A DNA stretch of 28,436 bases from a virus. Of the stretch, positions 4,783-25,823 are shown in pieces. The stretch's first letter is position 1; every line of letters begins with the position of its first letter. Below the pieces are notes generated by a model. That model saw only the letters and a program-made list of their open reading frames with translations, was not told the origin of the DNA and did not search any database. The translations under genes were made by a program, and so were the position numbers. The DNA lies in the IMG/VR virus record IMGVR_UViG_3300032083_002600, positions 1-28,436 of that record; one strand, written 5' to 3'.

Positions 4783-7539
4783 TTAGCTCCTGATTACCGT
4801 GAAATTGTGCATTTGCCAGCTTGTATGGCCGTCGCGCACCGCCTCTAGCTCTACGCGCACGCTGTCGTTTAGCGGGCTCTCTGCCGCCCATTCCCAGGAC
4901 GTGCCTGTAATACCGCTTTCGGTGTGCGCTAGCGCGTCTAGTTCGTCGTAGAACCGAAGCGTGTACGTGGTGCCTGCCTCCGGCCCTACGTCGCCTTGCG
5001 TGGTGTCTACTATGTCGCCGTCCGTCTGCTGTACCCGGTCGCGGTGCGCCCAGGAAACCGTGATGGTGTCGGTCGGGCCAATGCTCGCCGGGTAGGCGCT
5101 GGCGTTGATCTTGAAATTGCCCGGCGGGTACGGGCGAATTGCCCGGCTGTCCATCGTCGCGCTGACTTCCGTGGCCGCCGAAATGTCCAGTTCCCCGGAC
5201 CCCGTTACGGGCAGCAGCTTGCCGTTGATCGTCTCGCTGTCGGCGTAGGCTGTTTCATCAGTGGCGGCGAATTCATCCCAAAAATGGACGGCCGTACCTA
5301 TGGCGTGCGTGGCTGGTACGGTATCGAGGCAGCCGCGCTTCGCGCTCAGCGTCGTACTGGTGACACTGACGACTTTTACAATCTCCTGCCCGATCTGCGC
5401 GTGCGTTCCAGCGGTCACAAGGTCGGTATCGACCGCCGCCTGTATCGTGATCGTTTCGTCGAGATAGCTGATCGCCACGGCCACTTCCGCGTAGAGCGAG
5501 AATTGCGCCGTCTCGGCCTCGTTGTAGCCTGCTCCCGCGTCCACATATAGCCGCGCGTTGATGGCGCCGTCGTTCGGGCGGTCGCCAGCGAGCAGCAGAT
5601 AGCCTATTGTGTCGTCGGCTGTTAGCGCGTCATCCACGGCCGCCTGCCCCTGGCGCTGTACCAACTCGTAATAGGGCGCTTCCAGGGCTATCGGGTGCGG
5701 GCAGTTGTCTGGCTCGCTGACCGGGTCCGTCCACTCCGAGGGCTGGTCTACCGTCTCCAGCCCTACTGGCAAGGCAAAGGCATCCTGCACGCATTGCAGC
5801 CTTACCTTGTTCGTCTGCCCGTCGCCGAAGGCTATTTCCGTTACCCGCATGACCATGCTTTGAATGCCGTAGTCGGGCCAGGAAAGCTTGAACGGCTTAC
5901 CTACGTTCAGCGCCGCCGCGTCGCGGTTCGCGTAGATCGTGCAGGAAACTAGCGGGTTTGAAAGCGCGTATAGATCGCGCCCTGCCACCCGCTCCGCGAC
6001 TGCCCGGTTGGTAAATCCGGGGTATTCGTTTGTCGCGTTGATCGTCCCGCCCTGCATTTGCGCCAGCGCGGTGTCCTGCAAGGTCAGGCTGCCGGTTTTC
6101 TCGGTCTGCCAGTCCCAGTAGTTGATCGTTACCGAATTGACCAACTCGCCAACGGTCGGGCGCTTGTAGCCCTCTAGGCGTTCCACGTTGCTTTCATCCA
6201 GTTCGACCAGGCTTTCCGGGTCGTAGTCGTCGCGGATCAAATTCAGGACGAATTTGCCTGTTGAATTGTCCACGTAAAGCGTGGCGTCTATGTGCCGCAA
6301 GATATCCCGCACGAAGTCTTCTATGGGCGTCTCCCGGTCCCATAGCAGGGATATGCCCATCGCTTCATCGAACAGGGCATCTGACGCCTCCATGAAACTG
6401 GTGTCGTCTATATCGGCGTCGGCGTAGCCCATGCCCCAGTCGGGGTCTGTCAGGCACTCCCGGACAATATGCGCCGGGTTCAGGTCTACCTGCCCGTACA
6501 GCGCGCCTTTGATGATGTTCTCCATCGCCTCCGGGTCGCCGCCGTTTACTATCGGCACGCCGTCGTATGGCGTGTTATCGACGTAGGCGGTCCAGGTCGT
6601 TGTCGGGTGGTCGATGTTGATGGCGAAGCTGCGCACGTCCGTTAGTGCGTCCAATAAATCCTTCGCGCCTTGCGCGATCTCCTCCGAGGTTTCGGAGCTA
6701 TTGTTCGTGCTGGGGCCGCCGTCCGTCGTAAAAATGATCGTGCGCTCGGCGTCGGTCGGGGCGCCGTCGAAAAAGCTTTCCGCGTCCAATAAAGCCGCCG
6801 GGAAATAGGTCCAGACTCCGCTGCCGTGCGTGTCCGGCAGGAACGCCTTTAGCGTGTCAATCTGCGACTGCGTGGTGATGTTTCGCTGTAGTGAACTGGT
6901 CCGGGAGTCCGGGTTGGTGCCCCAGCCCACGATCATGATGTCTAGCTGCTCGATGAGCCCTATCTGTTTCAGGCCCCATACGAAATCAAGTACGCCGTAA
7001 ATGGCCTGCCGCTGGTTCTCGAAGCGCGTTTCCCCGTTGCTGACTATCGTCGTCATCGACCCGGAATGGTCGAGCGCTAAATAGATCGCTTTCGGTAGCG
7101 AATTAATATGCCCGATGGGCGCCTTCGCCTGGTACCACTGCGCTATGCCGTCCTGGCGCGTAAAAACCCGCTGCACGCGGAAGGCCCAGTTTTTGATGTA
7201 GGGGTTCATGCCTACGTAAACGCGCCGCAGAACCGCCGCCGCCACGCCCCGGAACGCGGGCACGTCACCTAGCTTCGATGCCAGGTAGTCGTTCGCGTCC
7301 TGCGTCGGCTTGCCGCTCTCGAAGTCCACGGCGCCGCTTACGCCGCCCTCGCGGGACTCCCCGCCGAACAGGCCCGGCTTGCTGATCGTTAGCTGGCCGT
7401 CGTAAACGATCCCTTCCCATGCCTTGCGCTTGTCCACGTCTATGCGCAGCAACTGATCGACCGGGCCGTGGCATAGGCCCATGTGCATGCCAAGGTAATA
7501 CTTGTAGCCGACGACTACCTTTTTACTGCTGCCGCCCAT
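4783..7539 (-). CDS. Tail-tip / host-specificity protein (phage tail component family) with inserted von Willebrand A domain
   Basis: The 918-residue product is the central tail-tip protein. Residues 1-140 and 351-600 match the phage-related tail component family found in lambda-J-like and GTA-type hubs (NPAHIVRECLTDPDWGMGY at 354-372; LVNSVTINYWDWQTEKTGSLTLQDTALAQ at 466-494). Between them, about 150-348, is a VWA domain with a complete MIDAS: DHSGS (D157, S159, S161), T244 and D273 in FTTDGG. The C-terminal third is a run of beta/fibronectin-like modules. It would sit at the distal tail below the tape measure and contact the host surface. The start overlaps the upstream 67-residue gene by 17 bases. 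The VWA insertion is the odd feature; it may bind a protein ligand through a divalent metal. Confidence 0.8.
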   Translation of the reverse strand: MGGSSKKVVVGYKYYLGMHMGLCHGPVDQLLRIDVDKRKAWEGIVYDGQLTISKPGLFGGESREGGVSGAVDFESGKPTQDANDYLASKLGDVPAFRGVAAAVLRRVYVGMNPYIKNWAFRVQRVFTRQDGIAQWYQAKAPIGHINSLPKAIYLALDHSGSMTTIVSNGETRFENQRQAIYGVLDFVWGLKQIGLIEQLDIMIVGWGTNPDSRTSSLQRNITTQSQIDTLKAFLPDTHGSGVWTYFPAALLDAESFFDGAPTDAERTIIFTTDGGPSTNNSSETSEEIAQGAKDLLDALTDVRSFAINIDHPTTTWTAYVDNTPYDGVPIVNGGDPEAMENIIKGALYGQVDLNPAHIVRECLTDPDWGMGYADADIDDTSFMEASDALFDEAMGISLLWDRETPIEDFVRDILRHIDATLYVDNSTGKFVLNLIRDDYDPESLVELDESNVERLEGYKRPTVGELVNSVTINYWDWQTEKTGSLTLQDTALAQMQGGTINATNEYPGFTNRAVAERVAGRDLYALSNPLVSCTIYANRDAAALNVGKPFKLSWPDYGIQSMVMRVTEIAFGDGQTNKVRLQCVQDAFALPVGLETVDQPSEWTDPVSEPDNCPHPIALEAPYYELVQRQGQAAVDDALTADDTIGYLLLAGDRPNDGAINARLYVDAGAGYNEAETAQFSLYAEVAVAISYLDETITIQAAVDTDLVTAGTHAQIGQEIVKVVSVTSTTLSAKRGCLDTVPATHAIGTAVHFWDEFAATDETAYADSETINGKLLPVTGSGELDISAATEVSATMDSRAIRPYPPGNFKINASAYPASIGPTDTITVSWAHRDRVQQTDGDIVDTTQGDVGPEAGTTYTLRFYDELDALAHTESGITGTSWEWAAESPLNDSVRVELEAVRDGHTSWQMHNFTVIRS

Positions 7540-7726
7540 CGGCCTCTTGCTCCGCTATCTCTGCTACCCGGATCGCCATGGCGTCGCCGGTCGCCGCCAG
7601 TTCGTCGGCGTCTATCCCTTCGCGCAGGAACTTCGGCCAGTCCAGGCCGTGCCGCTCGAAGAAATGCCGCGCGCCCCGGCTGCACATGAGCGCCCTGCGA
7701 ATGTGCCGCATGTAAACCGTGGTCAC
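7523..7726 (-). CDS. Small conserved tail-tip-associated protein (67 aa)
   Basis: A GTG at 7726 overlaps the stop of the upstream gene (GTGA) and follows a GGGAAG. It starts a 67-residue frame with the segment MRHIRRALMCSRGARHFFERHGLDWPKFLREGIDADEL, including a CSRGAR...HGLDW pattern seen in small proteins next to tail-tip genes of proteobacterial siphophages. A longer frame in the same register exists, but its extension runs back through the upstream gene and is low-complexity basic sequence. The function is unknown; a tail-tip assembly role is inferred from position. Confidence 0.7.
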   Translation of the reverse strand: MTTVYMRHIRRALMCSRGARHFFERHGLDWPKFLREGIDADELAATGDAMAIRVAEIAEQEADGRQQ

Positions 7727-7962
7727 TTCTTCCCGCCCTTTTTCTTGACGGCCACTACCCGCAAATCGCCGTACCAGACCACATTCGGGCCGGTTAATAC
7801 CCGCGTACCAAACAGGACCGGAATCTCTTTCCCTTCCTCGGCGACCGGCACTTGGAAGTCCCCAAGGTTCGCCGCCACGGCGTCCTGCGTCTTCGGCTTT
7901 GGCGCCAACAGGTAGGAAATCGCGGTCGTGATGATCCATACGACAATTTGCGGCCAAACCAT
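7723..7962 (-). CDS. Small tail-assembly protein with N-terminal membrane segment (79 aa)
   Basis: From ATG 7962, preceded by a G-rich GGGGGGGCGGAA, the frame gives 79 residues: a hydrophobic N-terminus (MVWPQIVVWIITTAISYLL), then APKPKTQDA and a region containing FQVPVAEEGKEIPVLFGTR. The latter phrase is typical of the N-terminal part of tail-tip-type proteins (P-V-x-F-G-T-R), so this may be a tail assembly factor acting before the hub protein. The gene lies 11 bases after the BR0599-family gene and is coupled to the 67-residue gene. An upstream in-frame start at 8019 would overlap the preceding gene and has no ribosome site. Confidence 0.7.
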   Translation of the reverse strand: MVWPQIVVWIITTAISYLLAPKPKTQDAVAANLGDFQVPVAEEGKEIPVLFGTRVLTGPNVVWYGDLRVVAVKKKGGKK

Positions 7963-7973
7963 TTCCGCCCCCC

Positions 7974-8783
7974 CTATACGATGGAACTGCCGTCCATGGG
8001 GTTCCTTTGCGGAATCCATGGCCAGCCGCCGAAGTTGTCGAGGTTGTTAAAGCGGTCCTTGCAGGTCACGCGGTCGTGCGGGCAGCCGGGGTATAGCGTG
8101 ATCGGGATGCCGCCCCAGAACTGACCCCAAAGCTTGCCCCAGCCTACTAGGCCGATGTCCGAGCCGATGCCGACCACTTCCCGCCATAGCGTTATCTGGT
8201 CGCCCTGGTGGCCTACGATGTAGCGCAGCACGCCGTCCTGGTCTTCGACCATGCCGCTGTGAAAGTACCCGTCCGGGTAGCTGTCGGTCGTTTCAACGGT
8301 TAGAACAAGGCCGTTGACCGCCTTTAGGATCGCCGGCACCGCGAAGTCCGCCTTGTCCAGGGTGCAACCGCGCCCGTAAAGAACGTGCCGGCATGTGGTC
8401 TGGTACCGCGCGCGCACGCCGGTTCGGCGCAGGCTGGTGAAAACGCTTTCGCATTCCAGCGTCACTTCGCTCTGGTCGGCGGTTGAACCTACTACGCGGC
8501 CTTTCCAGTGCACGGTAGTCGTAGCGCCTACCTGGCGGAAGATGGTCACGGTAGCCTGGTACTCGGGAACGCTGGTCAGGAAAATCTGCGCGAGTACGTT
8601 TGTCCGGGGAACGCGAATTTGCACGTTGGCGCGGTTGATTTCCTCGCCCTGCTCTAGCCCGCTGCGCCCTATCGGCTCCGGCGTGTAGGTTTCGCTGTTG
8701 TACGTTACCGCCACGCCGCCGCTGGTCCAGGTGTATACCGTCTGATCGAGGGCAATACGGTATAGCTCTACGGGGGCGGTCAT
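7974..8783 (-). CDS. Phage BR0599-family distal tail protein
   Basis: This 269-residue protein ends with the hallmark of the phage BR0599/DUF2163-like family: CRHVLYGRGC (about 131-140), then YPGCPHDRVTCKDRFNNLDNFGG and WIPQRNP close to the C-terminus. Four conserved cysteines (CRH...GC and GCPHDRVTC) could bind metal or form a cluster. In GTA-like siphoviruses this family is a hub/baseplate component near the tail tip. Its ATG overlaps the stop of the upstream 388-residue gene (ATGA). The length fits the family. Confidence 0.8.
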   Translation of the reverse strand: MTAPVELYRIALDQTVYTWTSGGVAVTYNSETYTPEPIGRSGLEQGEEINRANVQIRVPRTNVLAQIFLTSVPEYQATVTIFRQVGATTTVHWKGRVVGSTADQSEVTLECESVFTSLRRTGVRARYQTTCRHVLYGRGCTLDKADFAVPAILKAVNGLVLTVETTDSYPDGYFHSGMVEDQDGVLRYIVGHQGDQITLWREVVGIGSDIGLVGWGKLWGQFWGGIPITLYPGCPHDRVTCKDRFNNLDNFGGWPWIPQRNPMDGSSIV

Positions 8784-21587: not shown

Positions 21588-23093
21588 TTAGAACGTGCGG
21601 CTGCCGGCGCTCGCCACGCTGTTGCGCTGCGGTCCGGGGTGGAAGGTGACTAGCAGGCTTTCTGCTAGGTCGGGGCTCAAACCTAAGCGGTTCGGCTTTT
21701 TCATTTCGTCTTTGCTTTCGATGAGGCATTCGCCGGCGCTGTTCGTGGTGAATCGAACGCTGCAAACTTCGGCAGCGAGGTCGTCTGCCTGTTCTCGCTC
21801 TAGGCCGCAAAAACTCGGCTCCTCCTCGCGGAACCAGTCGGCCATTTCCACCCATAACCAATCGCGGAGGCTTTTTGCTTCCATGTCGTGCCGGCCGCGC
21901 GCTGGGGCGGTTCTGGAAACGATCACCTTGACTACGGGCTCGTTCAACTCGGCAAGGCGCGAACAAATGCCGGCGCCTATGCCGATGGCGTCCACATAAA
22001 TCCCAGCCGCTTTAAACTTTTTGCGAAGCTGTACGGAGCGCCCGACCAGCCACATGGTTTCTTTCTTGGCGTGCACTTCCTGGTGCAGTACGTTCCTACC
22101 CCGGCGAACCGTGAACACAGCCCGGTCGCCGCCCTGGTCGGCAGGGTCTAGCCCTATACGTATGTCGCTGTTAGTCCGGTGCGCGGGTCTTTCGATGGCC
22201 GCCTCGACCAGTTCTATGGGGATCAGGACGTCGTCGTCCTGCTTGGGGAATTCCCCATCGGCCCGGACGCGCACGATGTTGCTGTCTTCGCCGTACTTGC
22301 GGACCAGCTTCTGCCTGTAGCCCGGGTCCGCTAGCGGGCTTTCGTCGGTGCGCAGGTGCAAGGTGGTGAATTCGCCCCGGTGGCGCTTGTGGCTGTCGGC
22401 AAAGTAGCCCGTATTCCGGGTAGGGTTGCCAAGCAAAAGCAGCCGGCTGCCGGGGCTGCTTAGTGCGCCCTCTGCCACTTCAAATACGCCATCAAATACG
22501 CCGCTGGCTTCGTCTACCAGAAATAGAATATTCCCCGCGTGGTCTTCGCCTACGAGGCTTAAACCATCCTCGCTTACTTCGACGTCGGTGGCGTGGAACC
22601 CCTGCAGGGCGTCCGGGTTGTCCTTCCCGCTGGTGCGGGCTACCGCGTACCAGTCGCGCGCAAATCGAACTTGGGTGAGCCGTTCGTTGGTAAGTCGGAA
22701 GTTCCGCCCTAACCAGAAGGCCGGGTTTATGTTGGCCCTGGCGGCCCGGCCGTCTGCGGCGCGCATCCACTTGGCCAATTCTGCCCACAATACGTCGCGC
22801 AACTGGTGGCTGGTCGGGGCCGTGCAAGGAATCCGCGGAAAGTCGCGGGTTTCAAGGAACCAGAATATTGCCGCTGCTGATGCGCTGCTCTTGCCGGTGC
22901 CGTGGCCGCTGCGAACGGAAACCTTCGCGCCCTCTGGCTGTATTGCCTCGAATATGCGCCGCTGCTGATGCGTGGCCCTCAAGCCCAGGCGCTCGAAGGC
23001 GTAGCGCTCCGGATCGTCGTGCCAACGCGCCCGCGCCGCCTGGTACTCTGCCAGGGCATCTTCTAGGGCGTGCATATCGACCGCTGCACTCAT
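21588..23093 (-). CDS. terL: Terminase large subunit
   Basis: The 501-residue packaging motor has a Walker A (SGHGTGKS, 62-69), a Walker B (ILFLVDEAS, acidic pair D194-E195) and a motif III-like LLLLGNPT. The C-terminal nuclease has Asp residues in IGLDPADQGGDR (D316), YVDAIGIGAG (D368) and LGLSPDLAESL (D475). It cuts concatemers and drives DNA through the portal. Its ATG overlaps the small-subunit stop by 4 bases and has a GGGGG-type ribosome site. All required residues appear present. Confidence 0.93.
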   Translation of the reverse strand: MSAAVDMHALEDALAEYQAARARWHDDPERYAFERLGLRATHQQRRIFEAIQPEGAKVSVRSGHGTGKSSASAAAIFWFLETRDFPRIPCTAPTSHQLRDVLWAELAKWMRAADGRAARANINPAFWLGRNFRLTNERLTQVRFARDWYAVARTSGKDNPDALQGFHATDVEVSEDGLSLVGEDHAGNILFLVDEASGVFDGVFEVAEGALSSPGSRLLLLGNPTRNTGYFADSHKRHRGEFTTLHLRTDESPLADPGYRQKLVRKYGEDSNIVRVRADGEFPKQDDDVLIPIELVEAAIERPAHRTNSDIRIGLDPADQGGDRAVFTVRRGRNVLHQEVHAKKETMWLVGRSVQLRKKFKAAGIYVDAIGIGAGICSRLAELNEPVVKVIVSRTAPARGRHDMEAKSLRDWLWVEMADWFREEEPSFCGLEREQADDLAAEVCSVRFTTNSAGECLIESKDEMKKPNRLGLSPDLAESLLVTFHPGPQRNSVASAGSRTF

Positions 23094-23515
23094 GCCGCCC
23101 CCTGGCTGAACAAGGCGCCCAAAGCCCCGAACTCGGTTATTGCGTTGCCGTCTGCATCGGTAAGGGCGCGCTTGGTCGGCGCGTCCAATCCTAGAAGCTT
23201 CGCGCGGCGGTCACTGATTTTTAGAAATCGGTCTATCGCCTTCAGGTTCCCGCTTGCTACCTGTGGCCAAATGCTTCGCAGGGCCGCGTCAAGTCGCGCG
23301 TTTTCAATCTCGACTAGCTCCTGGGTGCTTTCCTTGTTCTCCTCGCGGTACTGGTCCAACGAGTCGGAGACGTAGTGTTGCGCGCGGCTTTTGCTGACGC
23401 CGCTTTGCTCCTGAATTTCCCGGTAGCTATAGCCGGCCTTACGAAGCGTGAGGACGGTTTTCCGCTTCTCCTGCTCGATGAGTTTTTCTGCTGCGGTTTT
23501 ACTCTTGCGCGGCAT
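23090..23515 (-). CDS. terS: Terminase small subunit-like HTH protein
   Basis: The 141-residue protein has a basic N-terminus, an HTH at about 22-52 (VLTLRKAGYSYREIQEQSGVSKSRAQHYVSD), then a helical oligomerisation region (NARLDAALRSIWPQVASGNLKAIDRFLKISDRRAKLLGLDAPTK). That layout is shared by many terminase small subunits that recognise pac/cos DNA. Adjacent and coupled to terL. GGAGG lies before the ATG, inside the end of the methyltransferase gene (17-base overlap). The assignment is by layout and position. Confidence 0.78.
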   Translation of the reverse strand: MPRKSKTAAEKLIEQEKRKTVLTLRKAGYSYREIQEQSGVSKSRAQHYVSDSLDQYREENKESTQELVEIENARLDAALRSIWPQVASGNLKAIDRFLKISDRRAKLLGLDAPTKRALTDADGNAITEFGALGALFSQGAA

Positions 23516-25823
23516 TGGCTACTTCCTCCGTCCATTCCGGGTCTGCGGTCAATACGTCGCCTAGCTCCTCTGGCGCGCTGTCCGGGTCGCCTTTGGCAAA
23601 AACCAGCACCTTTTCGTGCGCCTCCAAAAGCTGCCGGTCTTCCGCGAGCTTATCCGCTAGGAATCCGCCCAATTCCTTGAATGGCTGCTTTATTTGGCTG
23701 CCCTTTGTGAAAACCAATAGGTTTTGATGGGTTTTGCAAAGCTTCCGGGCGCTGCGGAACATGCGCGCCGCCCGAATGGAACTACTGCCTACGGGCGTTA
23801 CTAGAATGGCCTCGTTGTAGTATTTAAGGCCGGCCGCCTCGAACGCTTGAACGGTGTCGTTTACAAAGTTCCGGTAAACGCCTTTCTTGTCCCGGACTTC
23901 TCCTACAACGAACACGGCAAAGCGGTTTTCTTTCAAGCGCTCCACCGCCTGCGCTATAGCCGCTTGGTAGCCCTTGCGGAATTGCGAGTAGGGCATATTG
24001 CTTAGGTCGCGCGGGTCGTCGCTGTACTTCTCTAGGTCGGCGTATGGTGGGCAACTAAAAATTAGGTCGAACTGCTCGCCCTTGCGCAGGTGCCTCGCTA
24101 GTTCCGTGCTGTCGCCCTCTAGCCACTCCGGCTGGCCGTCTGCCTGTATTGCCTCGCCTATTGGAAGGTCGGCCGCTACGTTCCAGAACACCGCGCCCTT
24201 GCTGGCGTGCTTCTGAATGAATCGCCAGGCCTTCGCGTCGTACTCCGGGCAACTCGGGAACGGGGGCGGCTGCTTGGCCGGCCCCTCGAACTTCTCCGGC
24301 GCCTTGTATAGCTTGGCCCCGCCAATTTCCGGCTCCGCGCCTATCTGTACCGCGTGAAACTCTGCTTTTGGCCAGGCTTTTTGCAGCGCGCGGGTTAATA
24401 CGCCGCTGCCGGCTACGGTCCAGACTTCCTTGGGCGCGCGTTTGAAGGCGCCCGTTACGGCTTCCTTTGCTATCTCGGCGAGCCCGTCTATGAACTCGGG
24501 CGAATCAATCCCGAACGGTACTAGGTGCGCGCCGCTTCGCTCGCAATACTCGCGCGCCTTCGCCTGTACGTTGCTTAGGTAGCCTGGCTTTACGAACTCA
24601 ATAATTGCGCCGGCCGCCTGCGCCGCCTTCGTGCGCTTGTGCGGCGTCTTTCGGCTGGCCGTGAATATGGTTACGCGCTTCCCGGCCTGCGCGCCCGCAA
24701 TGGCTAGGGCTATCTGCGCGAATCCGAAAGCCGGGGAGGCGTATACGTATTCTTCGGCCTCGTTGGCCGCTATGTACCGCTCTAAAACGCGCCGCTTTGT
24801 GCCGCCTGGGCAAAGATCGTCGCGCACCACCTTAATGCCGTCTACTTCCTCTACAACAATTTCCGGCGCGTGGTCTGTCCTGGTCGCCGCCGCCGGCTGC
24901 GCGGTTATCTCGGTCCAATTCTGCCGGTTGGCCTTTACCTGCTCGGGGCGTAGCTCTATGCCGGTGTAGGTATACCCAAGCATCCCCGCTACTACGCCGC
25001 GAACGCTCCCGCCTGCGAACGGGTCCAGAATCCTGCCGCCCTGCGGGGCGAACCAACGGTAGGCTATCTCGGTCAGTACCGGGTCGAAAATCGAATCCCC
25101 GGCTAGCGCTATCTCCTCCGGGTACTTCTCGGCGAACTCAAGCCAGGAATACACCTGCCCGTCCCTTACCTCTAGCTCTGCCTTGCGGTCGTAAACCCTC
25201 GGCGGCTGGCTGCTTAGGGCGAACGTCAAGCCGTTGTCTTTCTGCTTGTCGCCGCTCTGCCCTCGGCCTAGTTCGCTGCGTATGCCAAGCGCGAGCCATA
25301 GCCGCTTGCGGTCCTGCCAATACCCTTGGCGCGCGTCCAATACGGAAAACGGCGGAATTAGAAATTGCTCTGCCAGGCTTGTCCTTACCTGTAGCGCGTC
25401 TAGTTCGTCGCCTTCGCCTTTCTTGCCCTTGCCTAAGCTGTCCAGGAACGCGGCTAGTTCGTCGTTATCCGTGGTTATCGCCGCCAGCAACTCCTCTAGC
25501 TGCTGTTCGTCGTGGTAGGCGAGGCCGGAGATCGGGTCTAGCGTGGCTAGCGCTATGCGCTCCTCGTTTTCGGTTAGGTCCACATACAAAACCGGCACTT
25601 CCGGTTCGTCGCGCCTTAGCGCCAACTCGACCCGTAGGTGTCCGTCGATAATGTGGCCGGTTCTTTCGTTGACTATTACCCGCTGAATCCAGCCTAGCTC
25701 GGAAAGCGCGGCCTCTAGCGCCTCCTGCTGCGGCTTCGGGTGCCGGCGGAAGTTTTCCGGGTTGGCTAGAAGCTGGTCCGGCGCCTCTGTGCCCTCGCCT
25801 ACAATGCGGCTTTTTAGCGCCAT
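23499..25823 (-). CDS. ParB-like / DNA methyltransferase with inserted PLP-enzyme (fold type II)-like domain
   Basis: This 774-residue fusion begins with a ParB/sulfiredoxin-like domain (about 10-95; IIDGHLRVELAL 58-69). A phage-methyltransferase N-terminus follows (PPFSVLDARQGYWQDRKRLW, about 157-176), then motif I DPFAGGS (267-273). Residues about 325-550 match PLP-dependent enzymes of the ACC deaminase/D-cysteine desulfhydrase type: VVRDDLCPGGTKRR with candidate PLP lysine K343, the helix region SPAFGFAQIALAIAGAQAGKRVTIF and the Gly-rich TVAGSGVLTRAL (469-480). The methyltransferase then resumes: SCPPYADLEKYSDD (motif IV, 590-603) and FAVFVVGEVRDKKG. The order puts the PLP-like domain between motifs I and IV. 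The target base and PLP activity are unknown. It overlaps the small terminase gene by 17 bases. Confidence 0.85.
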   Translation of the reverse strand: MALKSRIVGEGTEAPDQLLANPENFRRHPKPQQEALEAALSELGWIQRVIVNERTGHIIDGHLRVELALRRDEPEVPVLYVDLTENEERIALATLDPISGLAYHDEQQLEELLAAITTDNDELAAFLDSLGKGKKGEGDELDALQVRTSLAEQFLIPPFSVLDARQGYWQDRKRLWLALGIRSELGRGQSGDKQKDNGLTFALSSQPPRVYDRKAELEVRDGQVYSWLEFAEKYPEEIALAGDSIFDPVLTEIAYRWFAPQGGRILDPFAGGSVRGVVAGMLGYTYTGIELRPEQVKANRQNWTEITAQPAAATRTDHAPEIVVEEVDGIKVVRDDLCPGGTKRRVLERYIAANEAEEYVYASPAFGFAQIALAIAGAQAGKRVTIFTASRKTPHKRTKAAQAAGAIIEFVKPGYLSNVQAKAREYCERSGAHLVPFGIDSPEFIDGLAEIAKEAVTGAFKRAPKEVWTVAGSGVLTRALQKAWPKAEFHAVQIGAEPEIGGAKLYKAPEKFEGPAKQPPPFPSCPEYDAKAWRFIQKHASKGAVFWNVAADLPIGEAIQADGQPEWLEGDSTELARHLRKGEQFDLIFSCPPYADLEKYSDDPRDLSNMPYSQFRKGYQAAIAQAVERLKENRFAVFVVGEVRDKKGVYRNFVNDTVQAFEAAGLKYYNEAILVTPVGSSSIRAARMFRSARKLCKTHQNLLVFTKGSQIKQPFKELGGFLADKLAEDRQLLEAHEKVLVFAKGDPDSAPEELGDVLTADPEWTEEVANAAQE

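Follow-up and report, generated by a model that had tools for sequence, protein, structure and literature searches.

A predicted fold-type II PLP enzyme in the loop of a phage ParB-linked DNA methyltransferase, with a possible role in DNA hypermodification

Why would a DNA methyltransferase (MTase) carry a second enzyme in its middle? This question is raised by a 774-aa open reading frame (ORF) of the virus record IMGVR_UViG_3300032083_002600, a stretch of 28,436 nucleotides that we call the window. In a first-pass annotation, the motifs DPFAGGS (residues 267–273) and CPPY (591–594) of this ORF had been assigned to one MTase, and about 230 residues between them likened to a fold-type II pyridoxal phosphate (PLP) enzyme with a candidate Schiff-base lysine at K343 and the phosphate loop AGSGVLTRA. 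Our analysis gives good support to the enzyme class and to the partnership of MTase and PLP enzyme. A substrate, a reaction and a target base can be proposed more tentatively.

A PLP domain between two halves of a methyltransferase

The ORF and its parts are as follows; the abbreviation AdoMet stands for S-adenosylmethionine (also SAM), ACC for 1-aminocyclopropane-1-carboxylate and HMM for hidden Markov model.

23499–25823, minus strand: complete, open ORF of 774 aa in the order ParB–linker motif–MTase part 1–PLP domain–MTase part 2
25458–25802, minus strand: ParB-like N-terminal domain, about residues 8–122, with the motif DGHLRVELAL (PHROGs ParB families, own HMM)
25254–25388, minus strand: conserved 'mid' motif PPFSVLDARQGYWQDRKRLWLALGI, within residues 146–190, common to the ParB-MTases of the family (alignment)
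24900–25106, minus strand: MTase part 1, residues 240–308, with motif I DPFAGGSVRG (267–276) and motif II/helix B (Pfam, alignment, AlphaFold model)
24996–25025, minus strand: motif I DPFAGGSVRG including G272 and R275, for which the clade linked to AdoMet decarboxylase has D and F (alignment)
24156–24896, minus strand: whole inserted segment, residues 310–556, in the loop between helix B and strand 3 (alignment with insert-free relatives, AlphaFold model)
24168–24866, minus strand: predicted fold-type II PLP domain, residues 320–552 (PALP, AlphaFold, Foldseek)
24795–24797, minus strand: K343 of GGTK, predicted Schiff-base lysine (invariant; aligned to GGNK of 1j0a)
24402–24410, minus strand: G472-S473-G474, predicted phosphate-binding loop (near-invariant; aligned with AGSG of 1j0a)
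24231–24242, minus strand: Y528-D529-A530-K531, equivalent to Y-E-x-K of ACC deaminase-type enzymes (family alignments)
23670–24140, minus strand: MTase part 2, residues 562–718, with motif III, motif IV and the C-terminal half (Pfam, alignment, AlphaFold model)
24042–24053, minus strand: motif IV CPPY, residues 591–594 (Cys at least 90% conserved in all four partner classes)

Pfam matched N6_N4_Mtase (PF01555) in two separate stretches of the protein, and PHROGs gave the DNA MTase phrog_498 (2e-112) together with ParB families at the N terminus. A ParB domain and an N6/N4-type MTase whose motif I precedes motif IV place the protein among the phrog_498 ParB-MTases. When we aligned MTases of the same family that lack the insert, the gap closed exactly at the junction (NRHQADEIFPGKGFPKPEWICTDS compared with NRQNW...insert...PEWLEGDS). 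DPFAGGS and CPPY thus belong to one MTase, which the segment 310–556 splits between helix B and strand 3; the secondary structure of the AlphaFold model concurs. In a survey of ParB-MTase homologues, as the annotation had suggested, the insert was present in some and the loop was directly closed in others. The same architecture occurs in two cultured phages of Erythrobacter, vB_EliS_R6L and ZS04 (46% identity over 90%), and other metagenomic viruses also carry a ParB-MTase with a PLP insert. We ruled out an assembly chimaera, since the architecture recurs in cultured phages and other viromes. Chance resemblance of motifs is ruled out by Pfam, structure and residue conservation.

The insert itself was matched by PALP (PF00291) at residues 341–509 (E 2.4e-11; 44 bits against a curated cut-off of 35) and by the PHROGs 'threonine dehydratase' phrog_7093 over residues 328–550 (1.5e-38). 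AlphaFold modelled the insert alone with a mean local confidence (pLDDT) of 89.6 and a global score (pTM) of 0.86, and residues 320–552 had a pLDDT of ~90 in the full-length model. Foldseek searches of the PDB returned fold-type II PLP enzymes (E 1e-9 to 3e-11, probability 1.00 for many), including threonine deaminase, cysteine synthase, D-cysteine desulfhydrase and ACC deaminase. Among the matches listed, the ACC-deaminase homologue 1j0a superposed best (TM 0.77, 3.1 Å). Structure prediction of residues 320–555 therefore agrees with the PLP fold that had been proposed from the letters.

The two proposed active-site elements were also recovered. In a profile search, K343 (of GGTK, 340–343, which follows RDDL, 334–337) fell on the GGNK lysine of 1j0a, the Schiff-base lysine position of ACC deaminase and D-cysteine desulfhydrase, and G472-S473-G474 (in AGSGVLTRA, from 471) fell on the AGSG loop. 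We assessed conservation in 119 non-redundant viral relatives, 118 of which have the K343 column. All 118 kept K343; R334, D336, S473, Y528, D/E529 and K531 were essentially invariant and GSG 472–474 near-invariant. Position 529 separates two PLP families, being D in all members of family A, to which the window belongs, and E in all members of family B; Y528 and K531 are nearly or fully invariant. Twelve residues, K343 among them, do not vary between the PLP homologues linked to ParB-MTases and those of hypermodification phages. The NCBI models TIGR01274, TIGR01275 and NF003030 did not match the window protein, and a family B member (L018) scored 17–35 bits, below their cut-offs of 289–450. 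Sequence and model together give good support for identifying the insert as a fold-type II PLP enzyme of the kind represented by ACC deaminase and D-cysteine desulfhydrase, with predicted PLP binding and activity.

Could the domain be catalytically dead and instead serve structure, target recognition or dimerisation? It has lost an Asn that contacts PLP O3' in most related enzymes, at ~235 aa it falls short of the usual length of such enzymes, and the loop that holds it accepts several different domains. On the other side, K343, R334, D336, S473, Y528, D/E529 and K531 are essentially invariant in the 119 sequences, and most of the invariant residues are shared with the hypermodification-phage and actinobacterial homologues. 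Moreover, the domain is usually a separate gene, where a role in target recognition or as a scaffold is less natural. We consider a dead domain improbable. The Pfam match ends at residue 509, yet truncation was rejected as well: the C-terminal block Y-[DE]-x-K ... FW-x-V is retained in the family alignments.

Partners of the methyltransferase and users of its loop

We searched viral contigs with the PLP domain alone and scored ParB, linker, MTase and PLP domains with our own HMMs. Viral association was counted only for loci that the PLP-domain query had found and whose two flanks were each 2.5 kb or longer. Family A had the MTase within 3 kb in 36 of 37 viral loci and at 4.3 kb in the remaining one; for family B (score >200) the association was found in 34/40 viral loci. 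The PLP domain was inserted, fused N- or C-terminally, or encoded by a neighbouring gene that followed either ParB or the MTase; a separate gene was the usual form. A search for conserved extra neighbours yielded mostly terminase, portal and other structural genes. In ~85,000 bacterial genomes, we found only 15 PLP loci, 11 of which adjoin the same MTase family; the other four are on three actinobacterial chromosomes and one contig end of a metagenome-assembled genome. A plasmid reservoir was ruled out, as plasmids gave no match to the PLP domain. These sequence data support well that family A is a dedicated partner of the ParB-MTase family. The three chromosomal loci (L249, L250 and L251, in Herbihabitans, Saccharothrix and Lentzea) hold divergent stand-alone family A genes without MTase, and their compared neighbours share nothing except the PLP gene.

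Families A and B are homologous (hhalign probability 99.4%), and the closest PDB sequences of family B are D-cysteine desulfhydrase and ACC deaminase. At least 39 ORFs, counted before dereplication, carry family B at the same place in the MTase. In the PLP tree, a branch with support 100 divides the two families, yet they occupy the same site. The inserted family A forms (window, R6L and relatives) make up one clade (support 98) that is nested among separate-gene forms and also contains one such form. This pattern implies either two or more insertions at this site or a single ancestral one that was often undone.

These findings bear on the idea that an auxiliary metabolic enzyme, an amino-acid deaminase, was captured by the MTase gene by chance. 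Its Pfam and NCBIfam similarity to threonine dehydratase and ACC deaminase and the actinobacterial homologues without MTase would fit such a capture. The near-perfect viral association with one MTase family, the insertion of two separate PLP families at one site, the lack of a plasmid match and the scarcity in bacterial genomes speak against it, and we regard it as very improbable.

The PLP enzyme is one of several enzymes that use this slot or adjoin the MTase. Three loci (L174, L182, L208) have family B and a Cys-rich domain in tandem in the MTase loop, and three others (L063, L081, L082) have the Cys-rich domain alone. At locus L224, family B is followed by a protein resembling Asp/Asn beta-hydroxylase (PF05118) between the MTase halves, in two overlapping ORFs, and at L031 this hydroxylase is at the C terminus (7501–8691). 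The MTase of L008 is split at the usual insertion point, with a PP-loop (QueC/PAPS-reductase-like) ORF at 6944–7918 between the halves.

Some further observations concern these partners. The Cys-rich domain (CGGxCC...KPVTCxLYPL) lies in the slot or between PLP and MTase genes (including L193:2600-3106 and L205:5652-6071); it gave no library match where tested and is perhaps metal- or Fe-S-binding. The PF05118 protein is fused to, or beside, the ParB-MTase/PLP pair in L031:7501-8691, L129:1482-2735, L135:6835-7989, L150:586-1758, L153, L155 and L224. Its N-terminal half had no Pfam match and may be GNAT-like. Two ParB-MTase-type ORFs (L112:8890-12171 and L131:8642-11905) run on for ~670–700 aa that by eye resemble a DNA polymerase I-type exonuclease/polymerase.

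AdoMet-decarboxylase and thymidine-hypermodification relatives

In Pseudomonas phage ZRG1 and Croceibacter phage P2559S, a ParB-MTase without PLP overlaps a downstream AdoMet decarboxylase gene (PF02675 in ZRG1, E 1.6e-23). Scanning for this decarboxylase, we found it directly behind the PLP-less ParB-MTase in 34 of 80 viral loci, overlapping in 31 of the 34, and all 34 MTase-linked decarboxylases have the pyruvoyl ESH motif. No PLP gene was beside these 34, and none of the 164 PLP loci contained the decarboxylase. Likewise, the complete genomes of ParB-PLP phages that we checked lacked AdoMet decarboxylase, and ZRG1, P2559S and HCTV-2 lacked PALP. The PLP and AdoMet decarboxylase partners are mutually exclusive.

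The decarboxylase-linked MTases form one clade of the MTase tree (support 99), and motif I is among its clearest differences, DPFAGGSVRG having become DPFAGD[ST]VFG. D272/F275 was present in 31/31 MTases of the clade, compared with 0/139 PLP-linked and 0/52 partnerless MTases. G272/R275 was present in all 139 PLP-linked MTases; one partnerless sequence has E/K. In class I MTases, the amino-acid end of SAM sits against motif I, so that loss of the Arg and gain of an Asp would be expected for a decarboxylated donor. The fit to a donor without carboxylate is suggestive but is not statistical proof. The conserved two-gene unit of ParB-MTase and AdoMet decarboxylase, seen in 34 viral contigs and two cultured phages (most of L271–L303; L313, L336, L342, L343; L004:3995-5840; L268:4950-6591), could be a DNA aminopropyltransferase.

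The other set of relatives is found in phages with hypermodified thymidine. Lee et al. (NAR) reportedly described amino acids that are installed on hydroxymethyl-uracil and sculpted by PLP-dependent decarboxylases among others, which we take as a lead rather than a test. An enzyme related to family B was present in 346 phage records, mostly Vi01-type phages of Salmonella, Vibrio, Klebsiella, Escherichia and Dickeya (Ackermannviridae). Kutterviruses such as Vi01 carry 5-NeOmdU in their DNA (PMC11721090). Exactly one PALP-family protein is encoded by Vi01 (Vi01_182, note orf00226), and three other PLP-enzyme families gave no match in Vi01. In Glutamicibacter phage Montesquieu, the family B relative gp41 overlaps the gene for aGPT-Pplase within a set of thymidine-modification genes, and in mycobacteriophages Vincenzo and AlanGrant the relative gp2 overlaps the ParB-MTase gp1 just upstream of the terminase. 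A PLP gene with 52.8% identity to the query, the same level as in Salmonella Ackermannviridae, also occurs in OR844942.1 (Enterococcus phage Efm 3-10), a record that is possibly mislabelled or contaminated.

The genomes of Vi01 and Montesquieu hold a thymidylate-synthase homologue, an HMUDK kinase (HMUDK_hel) and aGPT-Pplase. The window is a fragment; of the complete genomes of four ParB-PLP phages (R6L, Vincenzo, Pam4 and Mae-JY30), none had aGPT-Pplase, ThyA or HMUDK_hel. These phages would therefore need another donor and installer of an amino acid. Should the PLP domain work on an amino acid that is bound to DNA, the obvious enzyme to have installed it is the MTase, using the 3-amino-3-carboxypropyl group of SAM itself. 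The annotation had suspected a link between PLP domain and base modification, which is favoured by the genomic association with the MTase and the distant homologues in thymidine-hypermodification phages; it had not foreseen possible chemistry at the amino-acid end of SAM or the other users of the slot.

Proposed reaction and comparison with known systems

We propose, with a probability of roughly 0.45, that the protein is a phage DNA-hypermodification enzyme whose MTase installs a SAM-derived group that the PLP domain trims. ParB and MTase would bind the phage DNA, and the MTase would transfer the 3-amino-3-carboxypropyl (acp) or aminopropyl group of SAM, not the methyl group, onto a base. The tethered PLP domain would then form an aldimine with the alpha-amino group of the DNA-linked amino acid and trim acp, most probably decarboxylating it so that aminopropyl is left; the related Vi01-type PLP enzyme presumably does likewise with amino acids carried by thymine. 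In the PLP-less sister clade, AdoMet decarboxylase would first make decarboxylated SAM, from which the MTase would transfer aminopropyl. The mark may protect the phage DNA from host nucleases. Extended to the whole ParB-MTase family, the proposal is somewhat more tentative: its members might not (or not only) methylate but transfer aminocarboxypropyl or aminopropyl of SAM to DNA, with tailoring by plug-in enzymes in one loop (PLP, Cys-rich metal-binding, 2-oxoglutarate-dependent hydroxylase) or of the donor in advance by AdoMet decarboxylase. Among the other slot users and neighbours, the Asp/Asn beta-hydroxylase PF05118 acts on amino-acid-like substrates.

Alternatively, the MTase may be an ordinary DNA methyltransferase (or transfer another small group), while the PLP enzyme, with no acp adduct involved, acts on a free amino acid or SAM and so provides the base with an activated group, with nitrogen or with sulfur. 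The MTase family matches N6/N4 DNA methylases and many members are partnerless. Among characterised enzymes, those nearest to family B (D-cysteine desulfhydrase, ACC deaminase, D-cysteate lyase) use free amino acids. PAPS-reductase/PP-loop-like ORFs near L001 and L118, and between the MTase halves of L008, could fit sulfur or amide chemistry. However, distant PLP relatives lie in gene sets that modify DNA-attached amino acids, and the AdoMet-decarboxylase partnership with its matched motif I changes points to the amino-acid end of SAM. Nor is there any sign that PLP-linked MTases, which keep R275, use decarboxylated SAM. We therefore consider this alternative unlikely, though less so than a dead or captured domain.

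Several points weigh against trimming of a SAM-derived group by the PLP domain. The modified base and its chemistry are proposed from sequence, predicted structure and genomics. We know of no precedent for acp transfer by a CPPY-bearing MTase. In class I MTases, the SAM pocket and the loop that holds the insert are on opposite faces, a layout in which direct hand-over is not self-evident, and with a pTM of 0.47 the full-length model does not fix the relative orientation of the domains. An Asn in the S/T-x-G/S-N loop contacts PLP O3' in most, not all, fold-type II enzymes; it is replaced by Y/G/F/A/H in family A and by P in family B, and the cofactor geometry may therefore differ from the usual. 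Neither PLP nor decarboxylase neighbours 33 of 132 non-redundant MTases of the family, and PLP association switches often across the MTase tree; hence the MTase can work without PLP. G272D/R275F is one evolutionary event in a single clade rather than many independent ones, and contact of G272/R275 with the SAM carboxylate or amine is assumed from the usual role of motif I. That the Vi01 PLP enzyme is a decarboxylase is likewise presumed.

Two other proteins of the window may be mentioned. A helix-turn-helix protein (23090–23515, minus strand), labelled 'Rnase E' in PHROGs (phrog_645), adjoins the large terminase, a position that suggests a small terminase subunit. A small phage protein (26318–26731, minus strand; phrog_731, function unknown) resembles the receiver domain of a response regulator, standing alone.

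The general assumption for DNA MTases is methyl transfer, which transfer of acp or aminopropyl, if true, would contradict. Amino-acid-derived DNA bases could then be made outside the 5-hydroxymethyluracil pathway, phage DNA hypermodification would have a wider range, and many virome genes annotated as 'DNA methyltransferase' or 'threonine dehydratase' would find an explanation. Cultured phages such as Mycobacterium phage Vincenzo and Erythrobacter phage R6L make the proposal testable.

PLP enzymes in phage DNA hypermodification are already known in kind, and Pam4 gp70 is labelled 'pyridoxal-phosphate dependent enzyme' in GenBank. In the open-access literature, we found no description of an MTase-embedded PLP enzyme, of the shared enzyme slot or of the pairing of MTase and AdoMet decarboxylase. 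The CmoX/CmoA/CmoY carboxymethyl-cytosine system likewise joins a phage MTase to a non-methyl, SAM-derived handle, with ParBc domains nearby; unlike the window protein, it uses a C5-MTase, Cx-SAM and an ATP-dependent ligase, and no PLP enzyme is mentioned (PMC12783734). The thymidine-hypermodification PLP enzymes (Vi01 orf00226/Vi01_182, Ackermannviridae, Montesquieu gp41) share the invariant K343, Y528, K531 and W547 but stand alone, and their partners hydroxymethyldeoxyuridine (hmdU) synthase, HMUDK kinase and aGPT-Pplase were not found in the four complete ParB-PLP phages. The ParB-linked MTases of phrog_498/phrog_12517 (Listeria B054 gp77, Enterococcus phiFL3A gp36, HCTV-2 gp11) have the same ParB–linker–motif I–CPPY chain at 33–48% identity, but the PLP insert is absent and the loop directly closed. 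Finally, the ACC deaminase/D-cysteine desulfhydrase branch (PDB 1j0a, 4d8t; TIGR01275) shares R-[DE]-D ... GG-x-K, the GSG loop and Y-[DE]-x-K with the insert, whereas the insert has ~235 aa, is shortened between phosphate loop and C terminus, has lost the SN/GN Asn and carries motifs of its own, PFPSC-x-NYDAKAW and FWNV.

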